Origin: Chthoniobacter flavus
Lineage (GTDB): Bacteria > Verrucomicrobiota > Verrucomicrobiia > Chthoniobacterales > Chthoniobacteraceae
Length of the DNA: 64,000 nt
Assembly (NCBI GenBank): GCA_945861435.1
Contig: CAMAUX010000020.1
Span: forward strand, 1 to 64,000
Direction of reading: 5' to 3'
Shown here piece after piece: positions 1-30,817 of this stretch. Every line of letters begins with the position of its first letter. Position 1 is the first letter of the stretch. Under the pieces are notes generated by a model. That model saw only the letters and a list, made by a program, of their open reading frames with translations. It was not told where the DNA came from and ran no database searches. Made by a program: the position numbers and the translations under genes.

Positions 1-130
1 CCCGCAGGATTTTCACAAACTTCTCCTTCTCCGGATCGCCCAGCGCAAAGCGCCGGTCCACCACCCGCGTCACGCAGTGATAACACGCCCCCGGAGAACC
101 CTCCTCCGCCAACACCCGCCTCGTCCTCAT
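1..130 (-). CDS. RAYT-type transposase, N-terminal part, cut by window edge
   Basis: This is the first 43 codons of a REP-associated tyrosine transposase; the rest lies beyond the left edge. The start codon is the ATG complementary to 128-130. The translation begins MRTRRVLAEEGSPGACYHCV and continues with the VVDRRFALGDPEKEKFVKIL block. This matches the N-terminus of the complete transposase at 29418-30572, and about nine in ten bases agree, including the 45 bases upstream of the start. RAYTs are single-strand DNA transposases of the HUH/Y1 class that act on REP-like repeats. The HUH motif and catalytic tyrosine would lie outside the window, so I cannot say whether this copy is intact. A repeat copy sits 44 bases upstream of the start, as it does at the other RAYT starts in the window. 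Confidence 0.75.
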   Translation of the reverse strand, partial: MRTRRVLAEEGSPGACYHCVTRVVDRRFALGDPEKEKFVKILR

Positions 131-174
131 GGATTCACCACTCGCCCACATCGAGCGACTGGTCAACGCGCTCT

Positions 175-410
175 TTGATAAATTGCCTGTCCCTTGCCCT
201 TGCCGATAGATTGCCTGTTCCTTGCCCTTGCCGACATCGAGCGACTGGTCAATCGCGTTTTTTGATAGATTGCCTGTCCCTTTGCCGGGCCGCTTTGCCG
301 GGCCGCTTGCAGCCCGCTTGCCGAGCCTTGATAGATTGCCTGTCCCTACTTTGCGCCACCTCGAGCTCCCACCTCGCACCTCGGCGATCTTTGATAGATT
401 GCCTGTCCCT
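175..410 (+). repeat. Cluster of five RAYT-linked 20-bp repeats
   Basis: Five copies of the unit TTGATAGATTGCCTGTCCCT lie in the same orientation at 175-194, 205-221 (lacking the first bases, one T for C change), 262-281, 328-347 and 391-410. Copies 1 and 3 are preceded by the same lead-in, ATCGAGCGACTGGTCAAYCG, which is the DNA just upstream of the RAYT start at 130. Spacers are 10 to 47 bases and partly low complexity (TTGCCGGGCC runs). There is no perfect palindrome in the unit. Irregular spacing and related spacers argue against CRISPR. Confidence 0.85.
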
Positions 411-434
411 TGCCGGGCCCGCCTTGGAGGTGCC

Positions 435-1320
435 GGGCCCGCGGGAAGTTCCAGCCCTTCGGCACGTTGTGATAGCCGATCCAGAGTTCTCCGGGTTCGA
501 CCTCGAGGACGAAGGGATAGGTGGCTCCGCCGGGCGTGCCTTGCGCCAGGTTGAGGGACGGCGTCCACGTTCTGCCTTCGTCTGCGGACAGTGCGAGGTG
601 GAGTTCCGTGCGCTTGGTTTCCGCGCGATTCCACACGAGCGCGATGCGGCCATCGGCGAGGCGCGTGAGATGTCCGGGCGCGGACGTGGCATCGATGGTG
701 GTGGCCCGGGCGGCGGACCACGTCCTGCCGCCGTCGCTGGAAAAGGATTCCCAGAAGACCTTGTGCGTGGTGCGGATGAGCATCCACACGCGGTCGTCCC
801 TGAGTGAGAGCACGCAGGGTTCCAGTGCGCCGTCGTGGTTGCCCGCGCCGCCGATGTCGATGTCATTGCTGAGACTCCATGGGTTCCCACCATCCGTGGA
901 CACCGACGTCTGGCACACGAGCCGGCCGGGGTTTTTCACATAATGCGAATACGGGACGATGAGATGGCCGCTGCGCGTCTCGACGGCTCCATTGCTCGTG
1001 CCGGTGTAGCCTTGGAAAATGAGCCGGGGTTCGCTCCATGTCGCGCCGTTGTCGCTGCTGCGCGCGGTCCACATGTCGCTCTGCGTTTCATCCGCCGGAT
1101 TCTCGTCGATCCATTTCCACTTCTTGAATCCGAGGTAGAACACGTGGACCACGCCATCGCGCGCGGTCAGCACGGAGGGATGGGAGGGCTGACAGTCCGG
1201 ATGCCGCGCAATCACGCGCTCAGGCGCCCAGGTTTTGCCGCCGTCCGTGGTCACGCGGCCCGCGATCCATGTCGCGCCGGGCTTGCTGTGATAGCTGCCT
1301 GGCGTGGAATACACGGTCAT
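435..1320 (-). pseudogene. Sialidase-like (BNR/Asp-box) gene fragment between repeat clusters
   Basis: The minus strand encodes about 295 residues of a BNR-repeat sialidase-type beta-propeller. Five Asp-box motifs are visible: TTDGGKTW, SSDNGATW, STDGGNPW, SSDGGRTW and SADEGRTW. The body is undamaged, but there is no signal peptide and the sequence begins abruptly at MTVYSTPGSYHSKPG, so an N-terminal blade appears to be missing. The C-terminus reaches a typical end (WIGYHNVPKGWNFPRAR) and then runs into repeat DNA. The open frame continues through repeats at both ends, from 346 to 1419, producing chimeric tails such as RDRQSIK. I read this as a gene remnant. A short intact protein starting at 1320 is possible. 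It is distinct from the complete sialidase at 20874-22061. Confidence 0.6.
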
Positions 1321-1324
1321 AGCC

Positions 1325-1603
1325 TTGATAGATTGCCTGTCCCTACCTTGCGCCAACGCGCTCTTTGATAGATTGCCTGTCCCCACCTCGCGCTCCCACC
1401 CGCCACCTCGCGCTACCACCTCCCACCTCGGCGACCTTTGATAGATTGCCTGTCTCTTGCCGGGCCTTGCCGTGATTGTGGCCCCAGGGTTGCCGGCCCA
1501 TAGATTGCCTGTCCCTTGAGGCCCTTGTTCCTCGCGACCCTTGCCGAGCTCGCGGCCCCCTTGCCGCGCTTGCGGCGCTGTCCATGATGGATTGCCTGTC
1601 CCT
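1325..1603 (+). repeat. Second cluster of five RAYT-linked 20-bp repeats
   Basis: Copies lie at 1325-1344, 1365-1384, 1438-1457 (TGTCTCT variant), 1500-1516 and 1585-1603 (ATGATGGATTGCC variant), all in the same orientation as the cluster at 175-410. Some spacers are shared between clusters. Blocks of the type CACCTCGCGCTCCCACC and CACCTCGGCGA precede copies at 391 and 1438, and CCTTGCGCCAACGCGCTC recalls the RAYT lead-in. The two clusters enclose the sialidase remnant. No gene is visible between 1604 and 1805. Confidence 0.85.
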
Positions 1604-1805
1604 TGCAGCCCCTACGATCTGCTTCTGTCTCCCTTCGCATTCAGGGAATTGATTCGTACGCGCGCCTGCACGGCTTGCTCACGGGGGTGTCTGAGTCTGC
1701 GGACCGCGACTGGTGACGCTAACCGCATCCGCGTTGGCGAAGCGGAACGGAGGATCACCCTGCTGCAGCGCGGTCTGAACCGGCCAGCAAAGGAAGCCGC
1801 AGTCC

Positions 1806-3128
1806 ATGGAAGGGCGTCGAAAGGTGCTCGGCGCGCCCCGTACGAAGCTTGCCAATGGATGGCGGGGCATTAGCGTCGCGGCCGTGAATTCCATGCGCCT
1901 CTTCGTCGAGCCACTGCAGACGAGGGGCGACATCACCACGGTTTCCGGTGTGCTGGAGGGCGCCGGTGCACCGCAGCGGCTTTGGTGGAAAGTACCCGCG
2001 CGGTGGGCGGATGCGCTGGACACCTCGGCGGACCCGTTTGTCGTGGCTTTCATGATGCCGCTCATGCAGCAGGGAGGCGTCGTCCACATTCAGGGGCGCG
2101 TCTCTCCGTCACTTTTGGCCAGTCTCGATCGCTATGCGGCGATCTGGAGAACCTGGGCGCCAAGCCGGTACAAGACCGTGGTTTTCACGGCGGACGAGGA
2201 GGCGGAGGCACCGCCCCCTGCGAGCGATGCGTTTGTGCTGCCGCTCTCCTGCGGGGTGGATTCTTGTTACACCCTGTGGAGGCAACTGAGTGCTGCTGCC
2301 GGGCGCAGGACGCGCCGCCCGGGCGCGGTCGTGCTCATGCACGGCTTTGACATCTTGCTTGATCAACCGCATAGCGATGCGCTTTTCGCGGGTGTCGAGC
2401 GCGCCGCGCGCGCGATGGTCTCAGGCCTGAACCTTCCGGTCATCACCGTGCGCACGAATTTCCGCGAGTTGCGGATGCTGTGGGCGCACAGCTTCGGCAC
2501 GGAACTGGGGGCCGGCTTTCGTCTGTTTTCTCGACAGTTCGCCGGTGCGCTCATCCCGAACAACATCCCCTACGGCCATCTGGAGTTTGTGTGGGGCAGT
2601 CATCCGTTGATTGACCGGGAGTTGTCGAGCCGGCATTTCACGGTTGAAGACGAGGGCGGTGAGGCGACGCGGTTTGAGAAGCTGGCGCTTTTAAAAGAAT
2701 GGCCCGAGGCGCTCGCGAACCTTCGTGTCTGCTTTGGAGTGGGCGCGAGCAGTTCGGAGAATTGTGGTGTGTGCGAGAAGTGCGTGCGCACGATTCTGGC
2801 GTGCCGTCTTGCGGGTATGCCCCTGCCCGGTGCGTTCCGAAGAGACATCTCCGAGGCGGACTTGCGCCGTATCAAGGTGCACTCAGGTGCTGCCCTGCCC
2901 CTTTGGGCGGAACTGTATGAAGGCGCGGTGGCGCGTGGTCTCGACAAGACCTCTTGGGGAAGAGCACTGCGAAAGGTGTATCATCGCGGCAGGAGGAGGA
3001 AGGTCTTGGAAAGGCTCAAGAGCCCGTTCCTTCCCCTGCGCAACGCGCTGCGTTACATCTTCCGGGGGACCACGCTCTCCAGAAGGGAGTTGGCGCTTCA
3101 GCGCTCCGCCGCCAGCAAGGTGTCATAA
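1806..3128 (+). CDS. PP-loop ATPase-like protein (QueC/ExsB-related fold), function unknown
   Basis: The 440-residue protein carries a PP-loop-like signature, SCGVDS, at residues 148-153, where the canonical form is SGGxDS. It also has a cysteine cluster, CGVCEKC (C320, C323, C326), resembling the zinc site of 7-cyano-7-deazaguanine synthases. PP-loop enzymes adenylate a carbonyl before amidation or thiolation. The length and the extra N-terminal 140 residues are unlike QueC, so I do not assign queuosine synthesis. The neighbouring glycosyltransferase suggests a role in modifying a surface sugar (inference). The start at 1806 is supported by AAAGGAAG about nine bases upstream; an internal ATG at 1893 is the alternative. 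The C-terminal 70 residues are arginine-rich. The last 31 bases overlap the convergent glycosyltransferase. Confidence 0.7.
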   Translation: MEGRRKVLGAPRTKLANGWRGISVAAVNSMRLFVEPLQTRGDITTVSGVLEGAGAPQRLWWKVPARWADALDTSADPFVVAFMMPLMQQGGVVHIQGRVSPSLLASLDRYAAIWRTWAPSRYKTVVFTADEEAEAPPPASDAFVLPLSCGVDSCYTLWRQLSAAAGRRTRRPGAVVLMHGFDILLDQPHSDALFAGVERAARAMVSGLNLPVITVRTNFRELRMLWAHSFGTELGAGFRLFSRQFAGALIPNNIPYGHLEFVWGSHPLIDRELSSRHFTVEDEGGEATRFEKLALLKEWPEALANLRVCFGVGASSSENCGVCEKCVRTILACRLAGMPLPGAFRRDISEADLRRIKVHSGAALPLWAELYEGAVARGLDKTSWGRALRKVYHRGRRRKVLERLKSPFLPLRNALRYIFRGTTLSRRELALQRSAASKVS

Positions 3129-4208
3129 ACGCGGGCGGTTTTTTCGACCATGCTCGCGACGCTGAGATGGCTCTCCACATCACTGCGCGCCCGGTTGGTC
3201 AGGGCGGTCCGCTTCGCGCCATCGGTCAGCAAGTCGCTGAGTGTGTCTGCTGCAGCCGCCATGTCGCTGGTTTGCAGACAAATGGCGGTTTCCCCGTGGC
3301 GCGTATAATCGGAAAACGCGCCGGCCCCGCTGATGCTCAGCACCGCCGTGCCGGCTGCCTGCGCCTCAAACATCACCGAACCTCCGGACAGGGTCACAAG
3401 GACGTCCATCCCGGCAAGGACCGCAGGCATGTCGTTTCGACGCCCGGTGAAGATGATGTCGTTCTCGCGACCCATGGCGCGCACATCTCCCTCCACTGAG
3501 GCGCCGTATTCGTTGCGCTGCATTTCGCCGACGATGAAAAACTTCACCTTCAATCCGGTTTTAAGAACGTTCCCGGCCAGATGCACAAAATCGCGGACCT
3601 TCTTGAATTCCTCGACGCGTCCCACCAACCCCACGGTGGGAGTTTTCTGCACAGAAAACTCCCGGCGAAACGTCTCATCGCGACGGCACAGGGGCGAGAA
3701 CGTGTCGCAATCCACCCCGTCATCCACCACATGAATGCGCGCCTGCGGGAGATCCCCCTCCTGCAGTGCGCGGGCATGGCGCGCAGCGATGGCTCAAAGC
3801 ATCCGCCTGATCAAGCGCGTGTTTCCGGATGTCGCGCGGACTGAGTGGTCCGCGCACGTGCGAGACCACCGGGACCTGCGCATGACGCGCCGCGGCAAGC
3901 CCGTAGCGACACTTGTAGACGTCTGACGCATGGACGAGCACGGGACGCACATTCGCCACCAAGCGTCTCAGGCGGCCCACATCGAGTGGCCGGAGGAGGA
4001 AACCCTTCAGGGAGCGCCATCCGCGCATCGGCGAAATCGTCACTGCGATGCCGGCGGCACGCAGTTGGTCTGAAGTGGTGCCCTCGCCATCGAGCACGAC
4101 ATGCGGTTGATAACCATGCTGGGGAAGGTTCTGGGCCAGATAAAGCGTCTGCGTTTGAGATCCATCCGAGGAGCCCCCCCGGGCCAGTATCAAGACATTG
4201 CGTTGCAC
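3098..4208 (-). pseudogene. GT4-type glycosyltransferase, frameshifted
   Basis: Two overlapping frames together make one glycosyltransferase of the GT-B fold, group 1 (GT4) type. The N-terminal half, read from GTG at 4208, holds RGGSSDGSQTQTLYLAQNLP and the acceptor domain down to HALDQADAL. The C-terminal half holds DDGVDCDTF, VGLVGRVEEFKKVRDF and the nucleotide-sugar region SGGSVMFEAQAAGTAVLSI. The frames meet near 3795-3801. After ADAL the first frame runs into unrelated sequence (SHRCAPCPRTAGG), while the second resumes as AIAARHARALQEGDLPQARI behind an in-frame TGA. The total of 1,111 nt is consistent with a single-base indel. It is either a real inactivating mutation or a sequencing error. 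Without the shift, it would make a roughly 370-residue cytoplasmic or membrane-associated enzyme. Confidence 0.75.
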
Positions 4209-4783
4209 AGAAGAAGAGAAGGTGCGGACTGGATTCAGACGGGGGATTGATCTCGGCCTTGTCCCGGAAACGGGGGCGTGCAGGCTTCCCTTGCGACACG
4301 CGGGGCGCGGCTAGGAGGGGGGGTGAGAGTCTGAGCCGCGCGGGAGCGGGCACAGCATTCCGCGGAGTTCTCGAAATTCGACGCTTGTTTCCTTGGCACA
4401 AGATGAACAGTGCCATGGAATTAAGTGGGTGTACGCATCAAATCTGCGTTCGCGAAACGGCGCGTCGGCCTGCGTGAGATTTTCCGCAGCTGAAAACGCA
4501 TTCGGCCCGCACAAAGTCGGGACCGCACGCGGCCTTCCGATGGCGCAGCCCCCCGCGTTGATCCGGCCACTGAGGCCGAGCGTCGCTCCTTCCGTGAGTT
4601 TGATTGCCAGGCTGCGCTGATTGCGCGTGCAGACTCAGGGGCGCGGCCGTGCGGGAGACGGGCGGCTTCAGGGGATACGGGATGAACGTGATCGATCCGC
4701 GGAAGAGGATTAATCGGCCGCGAGCGGCATATCCCGGCTCCTTACACGGTTGAACCCGGCTCCGCTTTGCCGCTGTGAGCCAA
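4209..4783. other. Gene-free interval
   Basis: The 575 bases between the glycosyltransferase start and the spermidine-synthase-like stop hold only open frames that read as shadows: arginine/proline-rich, no recognisable motif, no credible ribosome binding site. I see no tRNA or clear terminator. Confidence 0.6.
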
Positions 4784-5587
4784 TCACCGTCCGGATGATC
4801 GGGATCCCTGTCGCTTTGAGCGGAAGTGCGACGGCGGGTGGGCTGGGCGTGATCCGCGGCGGGGTGCGCCAGCTGCGGGCTTTGGGATGTCGTCGGCCGG
4901 GGCGGGTGCTGGGATGCGTTCGCCGACGTAGATGCGGTGGGCTGCGCGCTTGGCGGTGGGGTGCGCCTTGGCGTCGAAGGTTGTGACGTGGAATCCGGCG
5001 CGTCCGAGACGCTGGACGAATTCGGGTTCGGCCTGCGCAGACCAGTAGGCGACGAGACCGTTGGGACGCAGGGCGCGCGCGACGGATTGGAAACCACCGC
5101 GGTCGTAGAGGCGTGCGTTGGCAGAGGTGACCCAGGAGGAGGGGGTGTGGTCGGTGTCGAGGAGGATGACGTCGTAGGCGTTTTCGGCGGTGGTCGCGCG
5201 CAGGACCTTGAAGACGTCTTTCACGAGAACTTCGACGCGCGGGTCTTCGAGGAGGCGGCCGTTGACGTGGCGCAGGAGTTCGCGGTTCCACTGGACGACT
5301 TCGGGCAGCAACTCGGAGACATGGACCACGGCGCGCGGGCCGGCGAGTTCAAGGACGCGCTTGAGGGTGAAGCCCAGGCCGAGGCCGCCGATGAGGATGC
5401 GGGGTTCGGGGGCGTGGCGCAGGTTGCGGCAGCCGTAGTCAGCGAGGAGGAGCTCAGAGACCGTGGCGATGGTGCTCATGAGCTGGCGGCCGTTGTGCTT
5501 GATGTAGTACTGGCCGTCGTGCTCGTGCAGCGTGATACGAGAGCCGTCCGGGGACTGGATCTGCGCGAGGTTGTGAAAGGGTTTCAT
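4784..5587 (-). CDS. Spermidine synthase-like methyltransferase-fold protein
   Basis: The 267-residue protein has the spermine/spermidine synthase arrangement. A short N-terminal beta domain (LHEHDGQYYIKHNGRQLMS) is followed by the nucleotide-binding loop GGLGLGFTLKRVLEL at about residues 66-80, then acidic DVILLDTDH at the catalytic-loop position. Family members move an aminopropyl group from decarboxylated S-adenosylmethionine to putrescine, but many in this clade are uncharacterised. No partner gene such as speD is nearby. The C-terminal 35 residues are rich in Pro, Arg and Ser, beyond the conserved fold. The ATG at 5587 gives the normal domain start. Confidence 0.75.
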   Translation of the reverse strand: MKPFHNLAQIQSPDGSRITLHEHDGQYYIKHNGRQLMSTIATVSELLLADYGCRNLRHAPEPRILIGGLGLGFTLKRVLELAGPRAVVHVSELLPEVVQWNRELLRHVNGRLLEDPRVEVLVKDVFKVLRATTAENAYDVILLDTDHTPSSWVTSANARLYDRGGFQSVARALRPNGLVAYWSAQAEPEFVQRLGRAGFHVTTFDAKAHPTAKRAAHRIYVGERIPAPAPADDIPKPAAGAPRRGSRPAHPPSHFRSKRQGSRSSGR

Positions 5588-5635
5588 GCGGGCGCGAGGG
5601 TGCAGAGGGAACGGGGCGATGGCGAGCCCTTCGGT

Positions 5636-7054
5636 TCAGCGCGGTTCGCGGAATGCGTAGAGATGACCTTCGGTGCGCAGGAAGAGGACGTCGCCGACAA
5701 GTGCCGGGGTGGCGAAGACGGGTTCCTTGAGGTCGATCCTGTTGAGGATCTGGAGTTGGTCGGAGGCTGCGAGGACGTGGAGGATGCCGCGTTGCGAGGT
5801 GATGTAGACGCGGCCGTTTGCACCGACAAGCGACGCGTAGTAGTCGCCGGGTGCGTCGATGCGCTGGTCTTGGAAAAGGGGTGTGCCGTCGGTGGTGCGG
5901 TAGCAGGAGGCGAGGCCGCCGTTTTTGATGGTGAACACGCGGCCGTCCATGGCGAGCGGGGAGGCGACGTAGGGGAGGCTGCGCGTGCTCTTCCACGCGA
6001 GATGGGAGGTGTTGATGTCGCCGGAGCCGCCTGGACGCAGGGCGAGGAGGGCATTGCCGGCGCGCGCGAACATGGAGCGCATGCCTTCCCATTCCTCCCG
6101 GGTGATGAGGCCGTCCTTGTTGAGGTCCATCTGGGAGAAGCGGTCGGCGACGGGGCCCTTGGGGAGATCGTTCTTGGTGAGGACGGTGTCTGCGGGTTTC
6201 TGAAGGGTGCTAAGAAGCGTGTTGAAAGGTTCCATGGAGACGCGGCTGTCGTCGTCTCCACCGACGTTCCAGCTGGCGCTCAGGAGCATTTCTCCGTCGA
6301 TGGCGGGGGAGCTGCAGGCGACGCGCGAGGTGCCGGAGTAGGTCCAGAGTTCGCGGCCGTTTGCGGGGTCGTAGGACTTGAGCCAGATCGAACCCGGGAC
6401 GATGAGTTCGGTGCGGCTACTGTGTTTCCAGAGGACCGGGGTGGCGAAGCTGCGGCGGAACTCAGGGCGTTCGGTGCGCCAGAGCGTGCGGCCGGTGCGC
6501 GGATCGAGAGCGGTGAGGAAGGAGCCCTCGTCGGAGTCGCAAGCAAGGTAGAGCCTGCCATCGGCGAGCACGGGCGATGCGGAGGTGCCGAACTCGACGA
6601 CGGGAGATTTGAGCGGGAGACGCCATTGTTCGCGGCCTGAGAAGTCGTGTGCGACGAGGCCGAAAGAGCCGAAGTAGGAGTAGACGAACTCACCATCGGT
6701 GGCGGGCGTGGGGGATGCAGGGCTCGCGATGCGGTGGGTGGGTTCGACGCGTTCGGAGGGGGCATCGGCTTTCCACAGAATCTTGCCGGAGGCGGCTTCC
6801 ATGCAGAGGGTCTGGAGGTGCGCGCCGTCGAAGGCGGTGAGGAAAAGGCGGTCTCCCCAGACGCATGGGGAGGAGTGACCGGAAGGCACAGGAGTCTTCC
6901 AGAGCACGTTCTCTTCGGGGCCGAAGTGCGTGGGGGGATTGGCGGAATCTGCGCGTCCGGTTCCGTGAGGGCCTCGGAACTGGGGCCAGTGTTCGGCGGC
7001 GTGGAGGGTTGTGGCGCAGAGGAGGAGAGCGCAGAGCAGGGGGGTGGGGCGCAT
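5636..7054 (-). CDS. Secreted PQQ-type beta-propeller with an internal EF-hand
   Basis: The 472-residue protein starts with a clear signal peptide (MRPTPLLCALLLCATTLHA) followed by EHWPQFRGPHGTGRA, typical of secreted PQQ-like repeat proteins of Planctomycetes and Verrucomicrobia. Repeated tryptophan-containing blades follow, with motifs such as GKILWKA, GREQWRLPL, GRTLWRTE and GRELWTYSG. Between blades, at about residues 290-305, is an EF-hand calcium loop (DLNKDGLITREEWE). Full PQQ cofactor ligation cannot be judged, and many such proteins are non-enzymatic scaffolds. The cupin gene lies 57 bases upstream on the same strand and the methyltransferase-fold gene 48 bases downstream, so the three may be co-transcribed. 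Confidence 0.85.
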   Translation of the reverse strand: MRPTPLLCALLLCATTLHAAEHWPQFRGPHGTGRADSANPPTHFGPEENVLWKTPVPSGHSSPCVWGDRLFLTAFDGAHLQTLCMEAASGKILWKADAPSERVEPTHRIASPASPTPATDGEFVYSYFGSFGLVAHDFSGREQWRLPLKSPVVEFGTSASPVLADGRLYLACDSDEGSFLTALDPRTGRTLWRTERPEFRRSFATPVLWKHSSRTELIVPGSIWLKSYDPANGRELWTYSGTSRVACSSPAIDGEMLLSASWNVGGDDDSRVSMEPFNTLLSTLQKPADTVLTKNDLPKGPVADRFSQMDLNKDGLITREEWEGMRSMFARAGNALLALRPGGSGDINTSHLAWKSTRSLPYVASPLAMDGRVFTIKNGGLASCYRTTDGTPLFQDQRIDAPGDYYASLVGANGRVYITSQRGILHVLAASDQLQILNRIDLKEPVFATPALVGDVLFLRTEGHLYAFREPR

Positions 7055-7111
7055 GGGGTGGGGGGGATGAACTGTGTGCAGGAGGGGGGCGCGGTGGACG
7101 CGCTGCGGCTG

Positions 7112-8008
7112 CTATTTGAAGAACTGGATATCGAGCGAACGCAGGTAGGTGTGGAGGCCCGCGTCCTGAACGGGGAACACCATCGCGTCCTCGGCTGTCT
7201 CGTTGTGATGGCTGTGCCACCAGCCCGGAGGGGTGATGAAGGCGGCGCCAGAGACCCAGTCAGCGCGGATGGGATCGATGAGCTGGCCCTCGGCGGTGAT
7301 GCGCGGGGACATGAGGGTGTAGACGCCCGGCCTGCCTTCGACGGCGAGGTCGACGGCGATGGACTGGTGACGGTGCGGCTTCTGCACAGCATGCGCAGGC
7401 AGGATGTTGAAGAGCGACCAGAGGGTGCGGGAGACCGTCATGGTGGCGCGCGTGGATTCCTGGCCAAAGATGACGCCGCAGCGGTTGCGAGCTGCTGCGC
7501 CGGGCTGGGAGCGGAAGCGTGCGACGGCGGCGAGGATCTCCGTGTGCGGGTACTTCACGAGATCGATGGTCTGCCGAGTGGGCGTGGCGCCGAGGTATTG
7601 GAGGAGGGGTTCGTCAGTGACGACGAAGCCGCGGGTGGGTGTGTGCGCTTCCCAACGGATGCGGGTGGTGCCCGGAATGACGATCACGTCCCCGGCCGCA
7701 TAGGTGCACGTTTTGGCGGCGGTATCTGGCGCGGAATCCGTGGAGCTGATGTGAAGCACGCCTTCGCCCGAGTGGAAGCGGACGAGCACCGAGGTGGCCG
7801 CGTCCGCGGTTTCCAGCGGGCTGCCGGGGGCGAGATTGAGATGGTATGCGGCGAGCGCGGGAGTGGTGGCCGGGTAGTCGGTTTCCAGCAGGGCCTGCTG
7901 GTTCCAGAGGACGCGTTCGGAAACCGCGGAGTCCATGGGCGGCAGGACCGTGTAGCTGATGGCGGGGATGGTGGGCGTGGCTGCGGCGGAGTATTCGTGA
8001 AGGTGCAT
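7112..8008 (-). CDS. Bicupin, gentisate 1,2-dioxygenase-like
   Basis: This 298-residue protein has two cupin halves. The first contains FHSGEGVLHI and GDVIVIPGTT. The second contains PHRHQSIAVDLAVEG and a late histidine run, GWWHSHHNE, as in the metal sites of gentisate and hydroxynaphthoate dioxygenases. Those enzymes open aromatic rings using Fe(II). The first half keeps few of the histidines, which is usual when only one cupin binds metal. I chose ATG 8008 (MHLHEYSAAATP); the frame stays open to 8116, but the extra residues are arginine/proline-rich. The substrate is unknown and no other aromatic-degradation gene is near. Confidence 0.75.
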   Translation of the reverse strand: MHLHEYSAAATPTIPAISYTVLPPMDSAVSERVLWNQQALLETDYPATTPALAAYHLNLAPGSPLETADAATSVLVRFHSGEGVLHISSTDSAPDTAAKTCTYAAGDVIVIPGTTRIRWEAHTPTRGFVVTDEPLLQYLGATPTRQTIDLVKYPHTEILAAVARFRSQPGAAARNRCGVIFGQESTRATMTVSRTLWSLFNILPAHAVQKPHRHQSIAVDLAVEGRPGVYTLMSPRITAEGQLIDPIRADWVSGAAFITPPGWWHSHHNETAEDAMVFPVQDAGLHTYLRSLDIQFFK

Positions 8009-8202
8009 GGCGGTGCGCCCGGTGGGCGGTGCATTCGATAGCACGGCCCGTGGCAAAGTGGCAGCGGGAAACCGGGGGCGTTTCACCGAAACGGCAGGTG
8101 ACATCGCCGCGCGCAAATCCGCTGAGGATCCGTAAGGATCGGGGTTCGGACGGAGCAGCGGTGCTGTGGTCTGCGGGGGATGGGTGCTGCTCAGCGCAGG
8201 CG

Positions 8203-9630: not shown

Positions 9631-9679
9631 GAAGGGCGGTGCTGGAGGGTGAAAGAGTTCCGGAGAGGGAGGGGAGGTG

Positions 9680-23634: not shown

Positions 23635-23650
23635 AAAAACGGATAACTTT

Positions 23651-23665
23651 GGGTAAGGCTTACCC
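23651..23665. promoter_or_regulatory. Perfect palindrome before the DAHP synthase start (operator candidate)
   Basis: GGGTAAG-G-CTTACCC is a 7-bp perfect inverted repeat around one base, 16 bases upstream of the DAHP synthase ATG on the minus strand. Its position over the expected leader or ribosome-binding region fits an operator or a small RNA hairpin. It is symmetric, so strand does not help. The function is inferred from position only. Confidence 0.35.
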
Positions 23666-23900
23666 TGAGCGCAAGCATCCAGCCAAAATAGCACGGAGCG
23701 CTGTCTCGGCCGACGGATTGTGGGCTGTGAAAAGCAGCGCCCAAACGGACTCAGCGTCGTTCAAGAGAAAGCGAATGAGGTGCAGCGTGCCGGATCAGAT
23801 CAATCAAAGGTTCAGCACAGATCCCGGCTGACGCTGACAGGGCCTGTCTTTTGGAGGTTCTGCGGCTGGGGGTGGATCGGAGAGCCTGAGCGCTGCTCGT

Positions 23901-24812
23901 TCATTGCTTCTCCCAGAAGCGCTGGAACTGGTCTTTCGTTTTCGCGGTGATGGTTTCATCGGGCTGCGTCCATTTGATCTCCGCGGACGCATGGTCCGCC
24001 TTCAACCTCGCGATGTCGGCTTCGGTGGCGATCACCTTGGTCAGCGTGATGGTTTTCATTGATGGCAGCTTCTTGAGGTGCGTGAAGCCCTTGTCGTAGG
24101 TCAGCCACGTTTCGTTGATTTCGATCTCTTCGAGCGTCGTGATTTCACCGAGAACGCTGAGCGCCGCATCGGTGATGCGCGGGCTGAATTGCGGGCTCAG
24201 CTTGATGACGCGGAGCTTTGGCAGCGCCTTGAGCGCGGGCATGCCTGCGTCGGTGACGGCGTAGGTGTGTTGGAGGTCCACGCTTTGCACGGACTTGATC
24301 TGGGCAATCGCAGTCGTCACGCGATTATCGACGCGACAGCCGCCGAGGCGCACGTGCTCGAGTTGGGGGCAGGAGGCGAGGTGCGCGAGGCCCGGCCCGA
24401 GAGGTGCTTTCTGCGGGAGATGTCCGGGCGCGTACCAGCCCCAGTGATCGAGGCCGAAGGACTTCAGGCTCTTCCATCCCGCGAAGGCCTTGAACCCCTC
24501 ATCACTCAACTCTGCGCCGTTGGCGAAGAACTTCTCGAGCTGGTCGAGGGGCGCGATGGACTTCGCGGTGTCGTCGTTCAAGCGGGCGGATTCCGGGCTG
24601 ACATCGGCGCGCTTCAACGTGCGCATGGAACCGATGAGTGCGTAGTCTTCCACGGTGACCGCCGCCTTTCCTCCGACCGATGCTTCGGTGACGGTGCCGT
24701 CCTTTTCGATCTTGAAACGGACTCCCTTGGCCGTGAGCGCATTGATGTCCGCTGGAGTTGCTGCGTGAGCGCCGAGGGTGAAGAGGAAGAGGAGTGCGAG
24801 GGTGGTTTTCAC
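23901..24812 (-). CDS. Secreted leucine-rich-repeat-like protein
   Basis: The 303-residue protein starts at GTG 24812, giving a signal peptide (VKTTLALLFLFTLGAHA). The mature part has irregular leucine-rich repeats: LSDEGFKAFAGWKSLKSFGL, LASCPQLEHVRLGGCRV, VTDAGMPALKALPKLRVIKL and ITDAALSVLGEITTLEEIEI. This DxGhxxLxxLxxLxxLxL style is common in secreted Planctomycetes and Verrucomicrobia proteins and usually mediates binding. It is the last gene of a four-gene operon, 46 bases after the propeller gene. The open frame extends upstream to 25079 inside that gene, so the GTG start is the sensible choice. The ligand is unknown. Confidence 0.75.
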   Translation of the reverse strand: MKTTLALLFLFTLGAHAATPADINALTAKGVRFKIEKDGTVTEASVGGKAAVTVEDYALIGSMRTLKRADVSPESARLNDDTAKSIAPLDQLEKFFANGAELSDEGFKAFAGWKSLKSFGLDHWGWYAPGHLPQKAPLGPGLAHLASCPQLEHVRLGGCRVDNRVTTAIAQIKSVQSVDLQHTYAVTDAGMPALKALPKLRVIKLSPQFSPRITDAALSVLGEITTLEEIEINETWLTYDKGFTHLKKLPSMKTITLTKVIATEADIARLKADHASAEIKWTQPDETITAKTKDQFQRFWEKQ

Positions 24813-24858
24813 GAGATGAGTCAGGATGGATTGCCCGCCGGCGGCAGGGGGTGATCTG

Positions 24859-25794
24859 TCATGCGCCGAGCCTGCCATGTGCCAGTGCGAGGATGTGCAG
24901 TGGGAACTCGTGCACTTGCTTCCAGCGGATGCCATCAGTGGAGCGCATGATTTTCCCGGGCCATAGGCTGCCGACAAAAATGCCTTGGCCAAAGACCGCG
25001 GCCGTTGGTGCGTTCTCGTTGGGCTCGCGCCGCCAGGCTTTGCCGTCCTTCGACAGGTAGGTGGCGCCCTGGCCGACACCGACGAACTGGCCGCCGTCCC
25101 AGATCATGGCATTGATGTGCTCGCCCTCTTCGCCGGTCGTGCGGTCGGTCCAAGTGAGGCCGTCCTCGCTGCGCATACACAGGCCGTGCATGCCGCCGCC
25201 GACAAAGACGCCGTTGCCGAAAGCGACGTCGATGAGCGTGTTGGTGGCGAGTGTTCCGGGGGCGATCTCAAACAGTTCAGCGCTCTCCTTTCGCGCGAGT
25301 CGGGAACCGTAATCGCCGACGATGATGACGCGGTCGTTGCCTTGAGCGACGCGTCGCAGGTTCGGATCGAACCCAATCATGCCCTTGCGGTCGGCGGTGA
25401 TGGGTTTGCGCGGAGACCATGCTTTGCCGTCGGCGGAGGTGATCTCACCGGGCACGGGGCCCCGGTCTTCGGTGATGATGTGGAACTGTCCGGCGGTTGA
25501 GAATACAGGGCCGAAGGCGCCGACATAGGCATGGGAGTTGAGCTTGAATGGATCCCATGTCGCGCCATCAGCGGTGGTCCAGCCGATGCTGTCGCCGCCG
25601 AATTTACCGAAGACCAAGCAGCGTCCCTGACCGAAGCAGGCGTGCTGGAGTAGCACGCCTTCGCGATCGAGTTGTTGATGTGTCCATTCGATGCCGTCTC
25701 GCGAGACGGCGCGCAGGCCGTTCTCGCCGGCGGCAAGAAAGAGGGGGCCGGTGAGCGGTGGAAGAGGCGGTGACGGAGGAGCGGCGTCGGGCAT
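24859..25794 (-). CDS. BNR/sialidase-like beta-propeller protein without signal peptide
   Basis: The 311-residue protein is built of propeller blades with Asp-box-like turns: SRDGIEWTHQ, TADGATWDPF, SADGKAWSPR, SEDGLTWTDR, SKDGKAWRRE and STDGIRWKQV. These are interleaved with GVFVGGGMHG, QFVGVGQGA and GIFVGSLWP strands, a pattern close to Ycf48-like and photosystem-assembly propellers. There is no cleavable signal at the N-terminus (MPDAAPPSPPLPPLTGPLFL), which is unusual beside exported neighbours. It lies 23 bases after the DUF1552 gene and 46 bases before the LRR gene. It is probably a binding protein rather than an enzyme. Confidence 0.75.
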   Translation of the reverse strand: MPDAAPPSPPLPPLTGPLFLAAGENGLRAVSRDGIEWTHQQLDREGVLLQHACFGQGRCLVFGKFGGDSIGWTTADGATWDPFKLNSHAYVGAFGPVFSTAGQFHIITEDRGPVPGEITSADGKAWSPRKPITADRKGMIGFDPNLRRVAQGNDRVIIVGDYGSRLARKESAELFEIAPGTLATNTLIDVAFGNGVFVGGGMHGLCMRSEDGLTWTDRTTGEEGEHINAMIWDGGQFVGVGQGATYLSKDGKAWRREPNENAPTAAVFGQGIFVGSLWPGKIMRSTDGIRWKQVHEFPLHILALAHGRLGA

Positions 25795-25817
25795 CGCGGG
25801 GATCGGTTGGGCTGATG

Positions 25818-27290
25818 TCAGACCAACCCCGGGAGGCGCCCGTCATACGCGGCCTTTTTGGAGGTGAGGCTGTTGCCGAACGCTCCGGAGCGGTCGCCGA
25901 GCAGGTCGAGCAGTTCGACGTAGAGGTTGGCGACGGGCGTGTCCTTTTGAAAAGCGATGTGGCGTCCCGGCTTGAGCAGGCCGCCGGCACGACCTGCCAG
26001 CAGCGCGGGGTAGTTGGTGCGACCGTGGCCGCCGTCGGACATGTAGGAGGTGTAGAGCATCACCGTATTGTCGAGCAGGCTGCTGCCGCCTTCATCGATG
26101 GCAGCCATTTTGGCGACGGCCTCTGCGAAAAATTGGGTATACCATGCGTGGATCTGCCGGAGGCCTTCGCGCGCGACGGGGTCGGCATCCTCGACGCGAC
26201 CCGAATTTCCGTGGTGCTCGAGCGTGTGCGCGTGATGCTCGTAGCCGACGGTGACGACGCCCGGGAACAACGCGCCGTCATCGCCCAGACCGAGACTGCA
26301 AACGCGCGTGGTGTCGGTTTGAAAAGCGAGCACCATGAGGTCGGCCATGATTCGGAGGTATTCACCGTGCACTGCCGGATTGCGTCCCACAGCGCGCATC
26401 ATTTGATCCTGCGCGGCGGTATTGGCGGGGAAGTTGGCGGGGAGGTGCGGATTGGAAGGGCCGGGATCCTTCATGTCGAGGGCCTCGATGGCGATGCGCT
26501 CCTGAACGCGGCGCACGCGGGTCTCGATGCTGGAAACGGATTCGAGGTATTCGTTGAGCTTGGCTTGGTCTGCGGAGCCGAGCTTCTTCTGCGTGCGGCG
26601 CGCGTCCTCGAGAATGAGGTCCACCACCTGCGTGTCGTAGCTGCGCTGTCCGGATGTCGTGGATTCGGGTGCGGATGTGGCGAGGCGGCGCGCCCAGTTT
26701 GGGGCGACCAACTGTCTGCCCTTGAACATCCGCTCGAAAGCCGTGCGGGGATTGCGCTCGACGGGGAGTGAGCGGCCTTGGCGATCGAAGAAGAAGGACG
26801 TCTCGCCGCCCGAGTAGCCCATGCGCACAGCGGGCAGGAGGCTCTGCGCGCCGATGATCTCGGCGGCCCGCTCGTCAATAGATTGGGTCGCGGTTGGGCG
26901 ACCATCCAACTTCCCGACCATGTCGGAGGCCGTGAGGTGCAAATAGGCGCAGTGCTCGTGCGCGTTGAGTTTGCCGTCGCTCCCGCCGGACTGGGAGAGG
27001 TTGGAGAGGATCAGCAGATCGTTCTTATGCGGCTCCAGCGAACGCAGGATGGATGGGAGCTTGCCGAGCACGCCTTCCGTCTTGGGTACCCAGGATTCGG
27101 TGACCGTGCCGCCTGTCACTGTGTAGATGCCGAAGCGCACGGGCGGTTTGACCGGGACGCGCGAGCCTGCGCGCAGGACGGTGGGTGCGAGTGATTCAAG
27201 GAAGGGCAGCGCGGCGAGAACGCCAGCGCCTCGGAGGAAGGAACGACGGGTGATCGGCGCGGGGGCGGCGCGGTGATGCTGTGGGTTCAT
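25818..27290 (-). CDS. DUF1552 protein with twin-arginine signal
   Basis: The 490-residue protein begins with the export signal ITRRSFLRGAGVLAALPFLE. Family motifs are FGIYTVTGGTVTESWVPKTE, LLILSNLSQSGGSDGKLNAH, HCAYLHLTASDMVGKLDGRP, DQAKLNEYLESVSSIETRVR and YTSYMSDGGHGRTNYPALLA. Its ATG overlaps the stop of the DUF1592 gene (ATGA), so the two are translationally coupled. It is a distant relative of the DUF1552 protein at 17259, with the same pairing on the opposite strand. Activity is unknown. Confidence 0.9.
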   Translation of the reverse strand: MNPQHHRAAPAPITRRSFLRGAGVLAALPFLESLAPTVLRAGSRVPVKPPVRFGIYTVTGGTVTESWVPKTEGVLGKLPSILRSLEPHKNDLLILSNLSQSGGSDGKLNAHEHCAYLHLTASDMVGKLDGRPTATQSIDERAAEIIGAQSLLPAVRMGYSGGETSFFFDRQGRSLPVERNPRTAFERMFKGRQLVAPNWARRLATSAPESTTSGQRSYDTQVVDLILEDARRTQKKLGSADQAKLNEYLESVSSIETRVRRVQERIAIEALDMKDPGPSNPHLPANFPANTAAQDQMMRAVGRNPAVHGEYLRIMADLMVLAFQTDTTRVCSLGLGDDGALFPGVVTVGYEHHAHTLEHHGNSGRVEDADPVAREGLRQIHAWYTQFFAEAVAKMAAIDEGGSSLLDNTVMLYTSYMSDGGHGRTNYPALLAGRAGGLLKPGRHIAFQKDTPVANLYVELLDLLGDRSGAFGNSLTSKKAAYDGRLPGLV

Positions 27291-29134
27291 TCGGATTTGC
27301 GGTGTTGGAAAGGGAAGCTCTTGGCGACCTCGAGAATGAGGGTGGAGAAGTGGTGGTCGTTCTTTGCTAGCGCGGCAGTGATTTGGTCGAGCGCCGGTTC
27401 GTCATAGTAGTCGGCATCGCGGCCCAAGGCATAGCTCAGCGCCTGGGCCGCGACATTGCGCACGAACTGTGGCTGCTTTTCATGCAGCACCTTGCGCAGA
27501 CCCTCGATGCCCTTGAATTCGCCGATGCCCGGCAGTCTGCCGACGTTGTCCAAGGGTTGGCCGCCCGCGTTCGCCCGCCACGCTCCGACGGCATCATATT
27601 CCTCCAAGGCAAAGCCCATCGGATCCACACGGCGATGACAGCCCACGCAGTTCGCATCCGCCGCATGCTGATCCAGCTTTTCTCGGAAGTTCGCCGGCGC
27701 CGGTTTGTCCTTGGGTTGCGGCGCGAAGCTTCCCGCGGCGGCTGGAGGCGGTGGCGGGGGCGTTCCGAGGAGGACCTCCAGAAGCCATTTGCCGCGTGCC
27801 GTGGGCTTGGTGCGATCAGTGTGCGAGGTCATGGTCAGCATGCTTCCCATGGCGACCACGCCGCCCCGATGATCCTCGGGACGCAGCGTCACCTTGATGA
27901 ACTCCTGGCCCGCGGGCGCCGGCAGTCCGTAGTGCCTTGCCAGTTCGGCATTCACGAAGGTGTAGTCCGCATCCAAGAGGTCGAGCAGGCTGCGATCCTC
28001 CTTGCGGATGTGGTCGCAGAACATCCGCGTCTCGCGCTCCATCGCATCGCGCAGACTGCGCGTGTAAGTGGGGAAGGAGTTCTGGCTCGGGAGCGCCTTC
28101 CCGATGGAATACAACTGCAGCCATCGCTCGAGGAAGTGGCGCGTCAGCGTCTCCGCCTTGCGGTCCGCCAACAGGCGTCGCACCTGCTTTTCCAGAACCT
28201 CCGGTTGTGCCAGCGTGCCGGTGTCAGCCACCGCGAACAACTCGTCATCGGGCATCGTGGCCCAGAGGAAATAGGAGAGGCGGACGGCCAGTTCGTGATC
28301 GCTGATCCGCGCGACTTCGCCCGGTTTTGCCGGCGAGGATTCCATCCGCAGGAGGAAGTTTTGCGAGACCAGCGCCGGCTTCATGGCTTTGCGGAGCGCG
28401 AGGTCGAATGGGTCGCCGTTGGCGAGTGCGGCATCCGCAAGACGTGCGAAAGGCTCGGCTTCATTCGCCGAGACCGGGCGTCGGAAGGCACGGCGCAGGA
28501 ATGCAGTCAGGATCTTGCGTGCCGATGCCGCGGGCGCCGCCGTCTCATCGGGAGTGCCGAGGAGGGATTTGCGCGCGCCGTTGTCCTTGAACAGGGCGTC
28601 GAGTCCGAGGTCGGCGGCTTCGAAATATCGTTCCATTAGCGAAGGCTCGATCGTGAGTCCGCCGGCCTGATTCACGAAGCCCCTCGGCACGTTCTCATTG
28701 GGCATGCCGGCCTGGGAGGCTGGGTCGGCGTTGATGCGCAGCAGGTCGCGCATCGTCTGGGCGTATTCAGCGCGCGTCATCTGGCGCATCAGCGGCGGCC
28801 CGGGGTGCGGATGTTTGGAGGTGTCAAAACTCTCACCGATCCAGTCCAGCAACGCTTGTTTCTCCCCAGCCTTGAGCGGTGGTTCCTCCTCCGGCGGCAT
28901 CTCGCCGGCGCGGACTTGTTCGGCAACCTTGCGCCACACATCCCAGCGTTTCAGGGCTGCGTCGGTGGTCTTTAATTGGGAGAAATCGACGCCGCCCTTT
29001 TGCTTTTTCTCGCCGTGGCACTCCATGCAGTGCGACGCGATCACGGAGGCTGCGCCGCCCTCGAACTTCGCCTCTGCCGCGAGGCCGCAAAGAGGAAGCA
29101 CGAGTAATAAGCAAATCTGTCGTGGGGGAGTCAC
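27287..29134 (-). CDS. DUF1592/DUF1588-family secreted haem protein (short form)
   Basis: The 615-residue protein has a signal peptide (MTPPRQICLLLVLPLCGLA), then the haem motif CMECHGEKKQKGGVDFSQL. DUF1587 (MTRAEYAQTMRDLLRINAD), DUF1595 (FLRRAFRRPVSANEAEPFAR) and DUF1592 (ELAVRLSYFLWATMPDDELF) follow. DUF1588 contains HRGGVVAMGSMLTMTSHTD and a second CxxCH, CVGCHRRVDPMGFALEEYD; DUF1585 closes the protein. It lacks the roughly 200-residue module between the N-terminal part and DUF1595 found in the 798-residue homologue at 14852. It heads the minus-strand operon DUF1592-DUF1552-propeller-LRR. ATG 29134 gives a complete signal peptide. Confidence 0.9.
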   Translation of the reverse strand: MTPPRQICLLLVLPLCGLAAEAKFEGGAASVIASHCMECHGEKKQKGGVDFSQLKTTDAALKRWDVWRKVAEQVRAGEMPPEEEPPLKAGEKQALLDWIGESFDTSKHPHPGPPLMRQMTRAEYAQTMRDLLRINADPASQAGMPNENVPRGFVNQAGGLTIEPSLMERYFEAADLGLDALFKDNGARKSLLGTPDETAAPAASARKILTAFLRRAFRRPVSANEAEPFARLADAALANGDPFDLALRKAMKPALVSQNFLLRMESSPAKPGEVARISDHELAVRLSYFLWATMPDDELFAVADTGTLAQPEVLEKQVRRLLADRKAETLTRHFLERWLQLYSIGKALPSQNSFPTYTRSLRDAMERETRMFCDHIRKEDRSLLDLLDADYTFVNAELARHYGLPAPAGQEFIKVTLRPEDHRGGVVAMGSMLTMTSHTDRTKPTARGKWLLEVLLGTPPPPPPAAAGSFAPQPKDKPAPANFREKLDQHAADANCVGCHRRVDPMGFALEEYDAVGAWRANAGGQPLDNVGRLPGIGEFKGIEGLRKVLHEKQPQFVRNVAAQALSYALGRDADYYDEPALDQITAALAKNDHHFSTLILEVAKSFPFQHRKSE

Positions 29135-29417
29135 GGGGGGATTTCCTATTTAGCAGGAAACAGGGGAGGGGGAGAAGGCAATCTCAACTATTGAACCTCC
29201 CCTATTACAGTGGCATTCGGACGGGGCCCAGCTTCCGGGTGCGGGTTGGCGTCCTGTCGAGCGTGCCTCAATAGATCCCCTCCGGCCGATCGGACCGGTC
29301 TATCTGCTGGCAGTTTGTTTCTACGTTCGCCGCACCGGAAGCGGTCAGAGAGTGGCCGGGTGGCGGGACGATGGAGATGCAGGTTCGTTCGTCTCTGGTC
29401 GTTTGCGTTATCGTGCC

Positions 29418-30572
29418 TTATGCCTTGGGGTCCGTCCGGTGAATCGGTGCGCGCCGCAGATCCCGGACAGTGAAAAGCCACGGCATTTCCAATCCGCGCA
29501 ACTCGCGTGCACCGCTCTCTCGTCGGTCCCCGAACCTCTCCCGGTTTCTCCCAAAGAACCTTTCCACAAACGCCCGGCACCCCAGCACGCACCCGTCTGT
29601 GAAATACCTTACACGACACCGCATCCCCTCGAAGAAATCCAGACGTCCGCCCGCATGAAGGACCGCCTCCACCTCCCGGGTTGTCATGCCCCGGCGGCCC
29701 GCTCGTCCTCTCCGTCCTCCCGGTCCGCATGGTTCTGCGGCCCGTTCCACTCCGGTGTCGAAAACGTACATCCGGTACGCCGACAGCACGCGGCGCGTCT
29801 CCTTACGAATCTCGCTTTCGGTTCTATGAACGCGACTGTGCTGATGATTGCTCTGGCCGACGCGCCTTATCGCGGGTTGGGCAGATTGGACGGGCAGATC
29901 GTCCACCAGCACTCCGAGCACCACCCTCCGCAGTCTGCGACGAGCCAGTGTGCGGCCTGCCATCGCCTCGCCGTACCCACTCCACCGATAGTGGCCGGGT
30001 TCCCGCACGATGCCCGCGCGCACCGGATTCAGATCGATGTACGCCGCCACGGTCGCAAGCGTTCGGCCAGTCCCCTCCACGAGCACGCTCTTGAAGCGTC
30101 CCTCCCAAAGCGTCCCGGCCCGCCCATCGCGGGTGTTCAACCACTGGCTGAAACGCTGCTTCACCGCCTGCATGAACGCGCTCAGGCTCCACATCCTGCG
30201 CAGGAAACGTTCCCGCAACTTTTGAGCTCCGGCATGATCGCCCATCGTGCGCATTGCGCGCAGTCGCTCCTCCAGTTCATCGGCGGGAAAGCACAGATCC
30301 GCACGGCGAACCAAGCGCACGAGTTCAGCGTCGTCTGGCAGGGAGTCCGGCGCGGGTCTTGGTGGCACGTGGACGAGCATATGTACATGGTTGCTCATCA
30401 CGCAGAACGTGAGGACCTCCACCCCGCAGAACTCCTCGTATGCCCGCAGGATTTTCACGAACTTCTCCTTCTCCGGATCGCCCAGCGCAAACCGCCGGTC
30501 CACCACCCGCGTCACGCAGTGATAACACGCCCCTGGAGATCCCTCCTCCGCCAGCCACCGCCTCGTCCTCAT
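29418..30572 (-). CDS. REP-associated tyrosine transposase (RAYT), intact
   Basis: The 384-residue protein carries the HUH motif NHVHM with H62 and H64 after VEVLTFCVMS. The catalytic-tyrosine helix AAYIDLNPVRAGIV has Y178, and the LWEGRFKSVLVEG block typical of Y1/RAYT proteins is also present. RAYTs nick and join single-stranded DNA at REP-like sequences and are usually single-copy domesticated transposases. The extra 190 C-terminal residues are longer than in the canonical E. coli protein and include an Arg/Gly-rich patch. I chose ATG 30572 because the three RAYT 5' ends in this window agree from that codon onward; the frame remains open to 30686 through the repeat upstream. A 20-bp repeat sits 44 bases upstream of the start. 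No terminal inverted repeats are seen. Confidence 0.9.
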   Translation of the reverse strand: MRTRRWLAEEGSPGACYHCVTRVVDRRFALGDPEKEKFVKILRAYEEFCGVEVLTFCVMSNHVHMLVHVPPRPAPDSLPDDAELVRLVRRADLCFPADELEERLRAMRTMGDHAGAQKLRERFLRRMWSLSAFMQAVKQRFSQWLNTRDGRAGTLWEGRFKSVLVEGTGRTLATVAAYIDLNPVRAGIVREPGHYRWSGYGEAMAGRTLARRRLRRVVLGVLVDDLPVQSAQPAIRRVGQSNHQHSRVHRTESEIRKETRRVLSAYRMYVFDTGVERAAEPCGPGGRRGRAGRRGMTTREVEAVLHAGGRLDFFEGMRCRVRYFTDGCVLGCRAFVERFFGRNRERFGDRRESGARELRGLEMPWLFTVRDLRRAPIHRTDPKA

Positions 30573-30616
30573 GGACTCACCACTCGCCCACATCGAGCGA
30601 CGGGTCAACACGCACT

Positions 30617-30636
30617 TTGATGGATTGCCTGTCCCT
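30617..30636 (+). repeat. RAYT-linked repeat upstream of the intact RAYT
   Basis: TTGATGGATTGCCTGTCCCT differs by one base from the commonest unit in the left-hand clusters. It lies 44 bases before the RAYT start codon (30572), behind the shared lead-in ACATCGAGCGACGGGTCAAC, the same geometry as at 130/175. Confidence 0.85.
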
Positions 30637-30644
30637 AACCGTGC

Positions 30645-30753
30645 CTTTCTCCGGATGATCGCCCAGTGCAAACCGCCGGTCCACAACCCGCGTCACGCAG
30701 CGATAACACGCCCCCTGAGATCCCTCCTCCGCCAACACCCGCCTCGCCCTCAT
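30645..30753 (-). pseudogene. RAYT remnant: duplicated 5' end
   Basis: The minus strand from ATG 30753 reads MRARRVLAEEGSQGACYRCV and then VVDRRFALGDHPEKG, the RAYT N-terminus with a 3-base insertion. Homology stops after about 36 codons, near 30648, and the DNA joins the repeat-bearing leader of the intact RAYT. The start is 181 bases from the intact start, so 5' end plus leader plus repeat are arranged as an imperfect tandem duplication. No catalytic motif is left. Confidence 0.8.
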
Positions 30754-30797
30754 GGACTCACCCCTCACCCACATCGAGCGACGGGTCAACACGTTTT

Positions 30798-30817
30798 TTG
30801 ATGGATTGCCTGTCCCT
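30798..30817 (+). repeat. RAYT-linked repeat upstream of the RAYT remnant
   Basis: TTGATGGATTGCCTGTCCCT, identical to the copy at 30617-30636, again 44 bases from the ATG of the RAYT 5' end (30753) and behind the same lead-in. Confidence 0.85.

Follow-up and report, generated by a model that had tools for sequence, protein, structure and literature searches.

A short dispersed DNA repeat is probably the cognate site that a RAYT transposase recognizes and cleaves in Chthoniobacter flavus. The repeat was analysed in a 64,000-nucleotide (nt) stretch of this bacterium (contig CAMAUX010000020.1, positions 1 to 64,000; hereafter the window), in the genome to which it belongs (G000; 5.35 Mb, 105 contigs) and in related genomes. 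Sequence comparisons point to a linear, hairpin-free site that would be recognized as a single strand and in a strand-specific manner. Twelve matches to the 20-nt unit TTGATRGATTGCCTGTCCCT (at most 3 mismatches) were identified in the window, six of them exact, four with one mismatch and two with three, compared with none in 100 shuffled sequences. All twelve lie on the plus strand, opposite to the RAYT gene. The gap between the ATG and the repeat is 44 nt at each of the three RAYT starts (130, 30572 and 30753, with repeats at 175, 30617 and 30798). Both the single orientation and the fixed distance had been pointed out in a preliminary description of this DNA, and both were confirmed. Only the start at 30572 opens a full gene, whereas that at 130 runs off the contig start and that at 30753 belongs to a 35-codon fragment. 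The repeats at 30617 and 30798 belong to a 181-bp tandem duplication, which begins at the repeat and holds the first 35 RAYT codons. When nine RAYT 5' ends of the genome were aligned, seven carried the unit (within 2 mismatches) at 44-45 nt; a TTGAC box is found in eight and TTGAT in the ninth.

Read in the RAYT sense, the repeat is AGGGACAGGCAATCYATCAA. The 20-mer is a local version with 22 genome copies (within 2 mismatches), whereas the 12-nt core AGGGACAGGCAA (TTGCCTGTCCCT on the other strand) has 140 exact copies against one for the reversed control. The core is shorter than the unit first described. An alignment was made from 109 copies found by AGGGACAGGC, of which 82 were left after removal of similar flanks. 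Conservation beyond the ten searched positions spans about -7 to +17, approximately 24 nt. A 45-base lead-in, formerly taken together with the repeat, had to be given up, as dispersed copies conserve only about 12-24 nt and no lead-in. Depending on the pattern, 92, 109 or 113 copies of this genome were examined, together with 135 copies of a 10-mer and 110 of the 140 exact 12-mers. The latter are clustered with a median spacing of 159 bp. Successive exact copies less than 600 bp apart share the same orientation in 55 of 55 cases, and all 23 contigs with more than one exact copy keep a single orientation. With the looser 10-mer, 70 of 71 successive copies are co-oriented and 21 of 24 contigs are uniform.

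The dispersed repeat has been amplified in different versions from species to species. The core AGGGACAGGCAA accounts for 140 of the 176 copies of a wider pattern in G000, RGGGACAGACAA for 39 of 58 in G001 and AGGGACAGACAC for 29 of 40 in G002, and GGGGACAGRCAC is the commonest version in G012 (64 of 112) and G020 (138 of 181). The version of the window's genome has 6, 2 and 2 copies in the congeners G001, G002 and G003, where the wider pattern has 58, 40 and 11. On contig C15 (L064, C15:50541-51078), two internal RAYT fragments (codons ~100-170 and 99-200) lie between successive motif copies upstream of the intact gene, showing that other DNA is copied in along with the site.

Association of the repeat with RAYT genes

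The association was investigated upstream of RAYT genes in named relatives, namely the best 80 of at least 562 matches, nearly all with Verrucomicrobiota or Kiritimatiellia labels and one with a Thermoanaerobaculia label. Upstream sequence could be judged for 68 of the 80; 11 had less than 150 bp upstream and one lacked the matched N-terminus. Because of stops, L095 (in-frame stop) was left out of set A1, and L211, L217, L258 and L265 out of A2. Within -100 to -35, a site with at most 1 mismatch on either strand was found in 36 of 68 relatives, compared with 7.7% of 1272 control windows. Furthermore, an exact GGGWCAG on either strand lies upstream of 24 of 68, compared with 1.3% of controls. 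In five Verrucomicrobiota RAYTs (L206, L211, L213, L220 and L224) the motif is reversed, with GTCCC toward the gene. More distant RAYTs (L101, L102, L104, L116 and L117) have GGGGTCAG upstream, some with similar flank echoes by eye, and the site-and-echo behaviour described below may extend beyond this RAYT branch.

A survey of 40 genomes of the family gave a similar picture. Genomes with at least 9 copies of RGGGACAGRCAM were called repeat-rich, a cut set after the counts were seen. RAYT is present in 9 of the 11 repeat-rich genomes and in 7 of the 29 others (Fisher p 0.0025), one of the nine (G040) having a fragment only. Among genomes at least 90% complete, the numbers are 8 of 8 and 5 of 19. 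Reversed controls of RGGGACAGRCAM occur 0-6 times per genome, with 17 in G004. Some matches in G042 and G012 belong to open frames (with readings such as GTGT) rather than to the repeat, which makes the RGGGACAGRCAM counts upper bounds; in G042, 9 of the 15 distinct copies viewed have no surrounding open frame. The repeat-rich genome G038 (68% complete) yielded no RAYT, profile search included. These two comparisons, by locus and by genome, agree with the earlier proposal that the repeat is cognate to this RAYT.

Folding, strand placement and local duplications

The absence of a palindrome noted in the preliminary description was upheld. Single-strand DNA folds of 101, 43 and 75 copies from three genomes do not exceed dinucleotide shuffles in stability, with a mean z between -0.18 and 0.12 for the windows -20 to +40 and -30 to +60. 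The flanks show no dyad beyond that of permuted partners, which give stems of equal length. Complementary flanks seen by eye in G020 (such as GAAC...GTTC) were rejected on the same ground, as purine-rich left and pyrimidine-rich right flanks explain them. The GTAG foot of REPs is not in the repeat consensus. The 200-500 bp that follow five RAYTs of the genome contain no inverted copy with up to 3 mismatches; a look-alike at window positions 29160-29189 has 4 mismatches. In G020, seven convergent motif pairs 81-134 bp apart were found among the places listed, five with a RAYT-like 5' end on one side. Such pairs (e.g. L186, L196, L197, L200 and L202) resemble miniature elements, unlike the arrangement in the window's genome.

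G000 has a strong GC skew, reaching about 0.3 either way. Of 36 informative 20-kb regions, 33 have the AGGGACAGGC motif on the C-rich strand (101 copies there and 11 on the other strand), as do 27 of 32 contigs (Spearman -0.75), and the coding strand is unrelated to its orientation (15/32). From composition, a G-rich word would be expected on the opposite strand. The G-rich strand being the leading one is backed by 5 of 5 tRNA genes in the 40 stretches scanned (p 0.06) and by the third-position skew of rpoB and the adjoining open reading frame (read as rpoC), which exceeds that of 90% of genes on the C-rich strand. With the motif on the C-rich strand and the G-rich strand leading, the CCTGTCCCT / TTGCCTGTCCCT strand of the motif is probably the lagging-strand template. 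The p-values treat events and contigs as independent, which is true only in part.

The motif is also a hot spot of tandem duplication. Judged by eye, many copies come after an echo, in which the left flank is followed by the first motif bases, the left flank again and then the whole motif. An 8-nt left-flank echo with a truncated motif was found in 30 of 109 copies; of 9139 control positions from the same stretches, 6.9% have one. Tandem duplications with two copies of 9-30 bp reach 3.38 per kb near the motif in G000, 1.90 in G012, 1.09 in G020 and 3.09 in the 80 named loci; more than 150 bp away, coding DNA included, the values are 0.077, 0, 0.055 and 0.050 per kb, respectively. Outside long open reading frames, the named loci have 6.44 per kb near the motif (11 events) and 0.14 away from it (4 events); for G000, G012 and G020 together the rates are 1.02 (5 events) and 0.12 (3 events). 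One right-type event was found in an isolate genome, that of Luteolibacter marinus (L224), so metagenome assembly alone does not account for the duplication scars.

The breakpoints cluster inside the motif. Among 21 exact left-type events, GGGGAC or an A/T variant of it precedes the end point in 9 (seven genomes), and 3 end one base later; 7 of 15 right-type events start after GGGACA (five genomes), with L063, which fits both types, counted as right-type. The corrected p is about 0.001 for the left type and 0.0005 for the right type. On the opposite strand, the two clusters flank the T of CT in CCTGTCCC on its two sides. Characterised TnpA-REP enzymes cleave at a CT dinucleotide, one of them also at CA, according to the accessible portions of PMC8266576.

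The coordinates of the repeat copies and RAYT sequences in the window are collected in Table 1. The window has no match in Rfam. A BNR/Asp-box (sialidase-like) open reading frame (346-1419, minus strand; Pfam BNR_2) has its domain part between the repeat clusters 175-410 and 1325-1603, as if captured. Contig C100 starts (1-194) with nearly the same RAYT fragment and repeat as window positions 1-194, and repeat clusters thus seem to break the assembly. Elsewhere in G000, the C-terminal domain of ribosomal protein L2 has no match despite an estimated completeness of 96%, probably owing to an assembly gap. A separate stretch of ~150-200 bp looks, by eye, to be shared by the C78 RAYT, on its downstream side, and the C64 RAYT, on its upstream side (L066 ~1830-2000, L067 ~1700-1860).

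Table 1 RAYT sequences and repeat copies along the window.
Feature	Positions	Strand	Basis or remark
RAYT 5' fragment, codons 1-43, off contig start	2..130	-	
Repeat copy, 1 mismatch, 44 nt upstream of RAYT start 130	175..194	+	
Repeat copy, 3 mismatches	203..222	+	
Repeat copy, exact	262..281	+	
Repeat copy, exact	328..347	+	
Repeat copy, exact	391..410	+	
Repeat copy, exact	1325..1344	+	
Repeat copy, 1 mismatch	1365..1384	+	
Repeat copy, 1 mismatch	1438..1457	+	
Repeat copy, 3 mismatches	1497..1516	+	
Repeat copy, 1 mismatch	1584..1603	+	
Full-length RAYT, Y1/HUH transposase, 384 aa, H62-x-H64, Y178-x3-N182-P183	29418..30572	-	Pfam, invariant residues, AlphaFold model
TTGAC, -35-like box just downstream of repeat	30604..30608	-	putative promoter role
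Repeat copy, exact, 44 nt upstream of RAYT start 30572	30617..30636	+	
RAYT 5' fragment, codons 1-35, part of 181-bp tandem duplication	30646..30753	-	
Repeat copy, exact, 44 nt upstream of RAYT start 30753	30798..30817	+	

A candidate mechanism and its alternatives

The simplest account, and a probable one, is that the repeat is a linear, strand-specific recognition and cleavage site of the RAYT, used at the replication fork; it would join these observations as follows. RAYT would act on the 5'-TTGCCTGTCCCT-3' strand when it is exposed as the lagging-strand template, and would cut at the CT inside TTGCCTGTCCCT (GCCT/GTCCC). The adjacent 10-20 nt may then be copied or rejoined through the free 3'-OH and the 5' phosphotyrosine. 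The outcome would be local tandem duplications and, rarely, a new site elsewhere. Cleavage, strand and repair are all steps that we infer. A wider proposal, which we put forward tentatively and with considerable doubt, is that this RAYT branch may be a local DNA-duplication engine: it would use a linear word on the lagging-strand template, cut at CT, stutter 10-20-nt copies of the neighbouring DNA and seed new sites, remodelling intergenic DNA and moving no transposon.

Several observations weigh against the cognate cleavage site. Within the genome itself, the RAYT copy on contig C78 has a degenerate unit and that on C64 has none, and three of the 24 contigs (C15, C46 and C86) each hold one 10-mer copy in the other orientation. 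The two RAYT genes of G003 that have a start lack the site. Up to 32 of 68 named RAYTs lack a site within 1 mismatch in -100 to -35, although some starts may be mis-set, and GGGWCAG counted on the forward strand only, in -85 to -45, reaches 18 of 68. In G042 (88% complete) repeat copies are present and no RAYT was found, profile search included. The two situations regarded beforehand as damaging to the association, a repeat-rich genome devoid of RAYT and RAYTs devoid of the repeat, are thus each encountered in part. The strand bias in G001 points the same way (8 of 10 regions, p 0.11), and it is absent in G012 (3 of 6), G020 (3 of 7) and G002 (1 of 3), where the skew is weak. When 105 permuted words were compared in the named set, GGGACAG came top by events (11, next 3) and fourth by rate; by rate it is outside the top 8 in G000, G012 and G020 together, where a crude open reading frame filter left little sequence. 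Breakpoints also fall elsewhere in the motif, in 12 of the 21 left-type events and in 8 of the 15 right-type ones. Finally, junction microhomology is missing in 27 of 50 cases, compared with 23 of 41 for distant duplications, a similar share that favours no repair route; fill-in of staggered breaks and template switching are not told apart.

The spread of breakpoints across the motif (9 of 21 left-type ones at positions 1-4) is what would be expected if RAYT only bound the site and the duplications arose, with no cleavage, when the polymerase slipped or switched template at a protein roadblock or G-run. Template switching could also give the RAYT-internal fragments on C15, whose source lies ~0.7-0.9 kb away in the intact gene. 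We nevertheless regard binding without cleavage as unlikely, because several genomes show breakpoint clusters at positions 6 and 7, which flank the T of CT, an excess of microhomology is absent, and a strand bias across loci requires spread beyond local slippage.

The motif could alternatively be the terminal repeat of TIRYT elements, with RAYT transposons and miniature derivatives moving by inverted ends and solo ends left as relics. TIRYT elements carry GGGGWSAS terminal repeats (Di Nocera et al. 2013, PMC3733652, in its accessible text), and a motif of this type lies upstream of RAYT, as AGGGACAG (7 of 8 positions) in G000 and GGGGACAG in G012 and G020. The convergent pairs of G020, five of the seven flanked by a RAYT-like 5' end, fit such elements as well. 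This origin appears improbable for G000, where no inverted copy with up to 3 mismatches was found in the 200-500 bp after the five RAYTs (the look-alike having 4 mismatches) and the 55 pairs of successive exact copies less than 600 bp apart are all co-oriented.

An operator or promoter element of the RAYT gene, spread passively by recombination, would account for a motif that directly precedes a TTGAC-like box ~37 nt ahead of the start, as seen in the genome's own copies and several homologues. We give it little credence, as the dispersed copies retain ~24 nt without the TTGAC part, and neither the strand bias nor the duplication hot spot is predicted. The strong bias in 33 of 36 regions would also suit a strand-biased host replication or recombination signal (a Chi-, KOPS- or uptake-like word) serving as a RAYT landing site, an idea hardly tenable given that this version has 140 copies in one species and no more than 6 in 37 relatives, and that the copies are clustered and tied to RAYT. 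The counts in relatives also lean towards absence of the word from a RAYT-free sister strain, which would speak against a host signal.

Relation to known transposases and repeats

The 384-aa RAYT matches Pfam Y1_Tnp (5.6e-15), and H62, H64, Y178, N182 and P183, which form the HUH and Y---NP motifs, are invariant across 16 homologues. The top PDB match of its AlphaFold model (pLDDT 80.8, pTM 0.81) is 4er8, a RAYT with a bound REP hairpin (E 1.1e-05, TM 0.76 normalised by target). In the model, a three-helix insertion (helices 81-124) separates the beta3 strand (62-69) from the alphaC helix (130-149). A long C-terminal part is present, and no helix-turn-helix was found by Pfam at E <= 1 in four homologues. 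The score of 61.7 bits against the NCBIfam equivalog NF047646 (REP_Tyr_transpos) is below the cut-off of 80, so the protein is a relative rather than an equivalog. The RAYT on contig C15 (L064) has an in-frame SAQ tandem repeat in a variable linker.

Judged by the published description of the layout, the insertion and the C-terminal part of the predicted protein point to TnpA-Y1 subclass 2.3. This subclass combines the HUH and Y---NP motifs with ~55 residues inserted between beta3 and alphaC and a long C-terminal domain, and it has neither a helix-turn-helix nor DnaA_C; several diverged copies per genome are a further likeness (Quentin et al. 2018, PMC6006769, as far as its text is accessible). 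An assignment to subclass 2.1, suggested by the GGGG motif because the GGGGWSAS examples among RAYT classes are mostly 2.1 in the same source, was dropped in view of this layout. According to those portions, subclass 2.3 occurs mostly in Chromatiales and Alteromonadales and lacks REP-like sequences, whereas the present protein belongs to Verrucomicrobiota and has a probable cognate repeat.

The repeat differs from classic REPs, as first proposed, in being hairpin-free, but it is not unlike everything known, since AGGGACAG agrees with GGGGWSAS at 7 of 8 positions. Because the motif nearly fits the TIRYT consensus, a RAYT tied to a non-REP repeat has a precedent. TIRYT/TIRtron families likewise combine a RAYT-like gene with a GGGGWSAS-type motif near its start, and are moderately abundant with many dimers and clusters; in the accessible text of PMC3733652 neither a strand bias nor motif-bounded duplications are reported, and the present system differs in its co-oriented clusters and in having no downstream inverted copy. 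With REPs and REPINs of group 2-3 RAYTs it shares dispersed RAYT-tied repeats and the CT, cut by the tested enzymes (PMC8266576, same portions) and found at the breakpoints here, whereas the window's genome has no GTAG foot, hairpin or inverted pairs of exact copies. For IS608 and ISDra2 of the IS200/IS605 family, orientation follows replication and the transposed strand is on the lagging-strand template (PMC5371812, accessible part). A Y1 enzyme and an orientation tied to the replication strand, indicated by GC skew in G000, are common to both systems, whereas no hairpin ends or mobile IS unit were seen here, only a short site with local duplications. The open-access literature examined, in its accessible portions, describes neither a strand bias for this kind of repeat nor duplications bounded by the motif, nor a cognate repeat of any 2.3-type RAYT.

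If the duplication scars mark cleavage, the strand bias would connect the RAYT site with the replication fork, in line with IS200/IS605. If the reading given here is true, a hairpin-free site would be a second way for Y1 enzymes to choose DNA, and a repeat would be assigned to a subclass reported to have none. The duplication scars would then be a genome-readable footprint of RAYT cleavage, and if they do mark cleavage, the cut site of an untried RAYT branch could be read from genomes alone.

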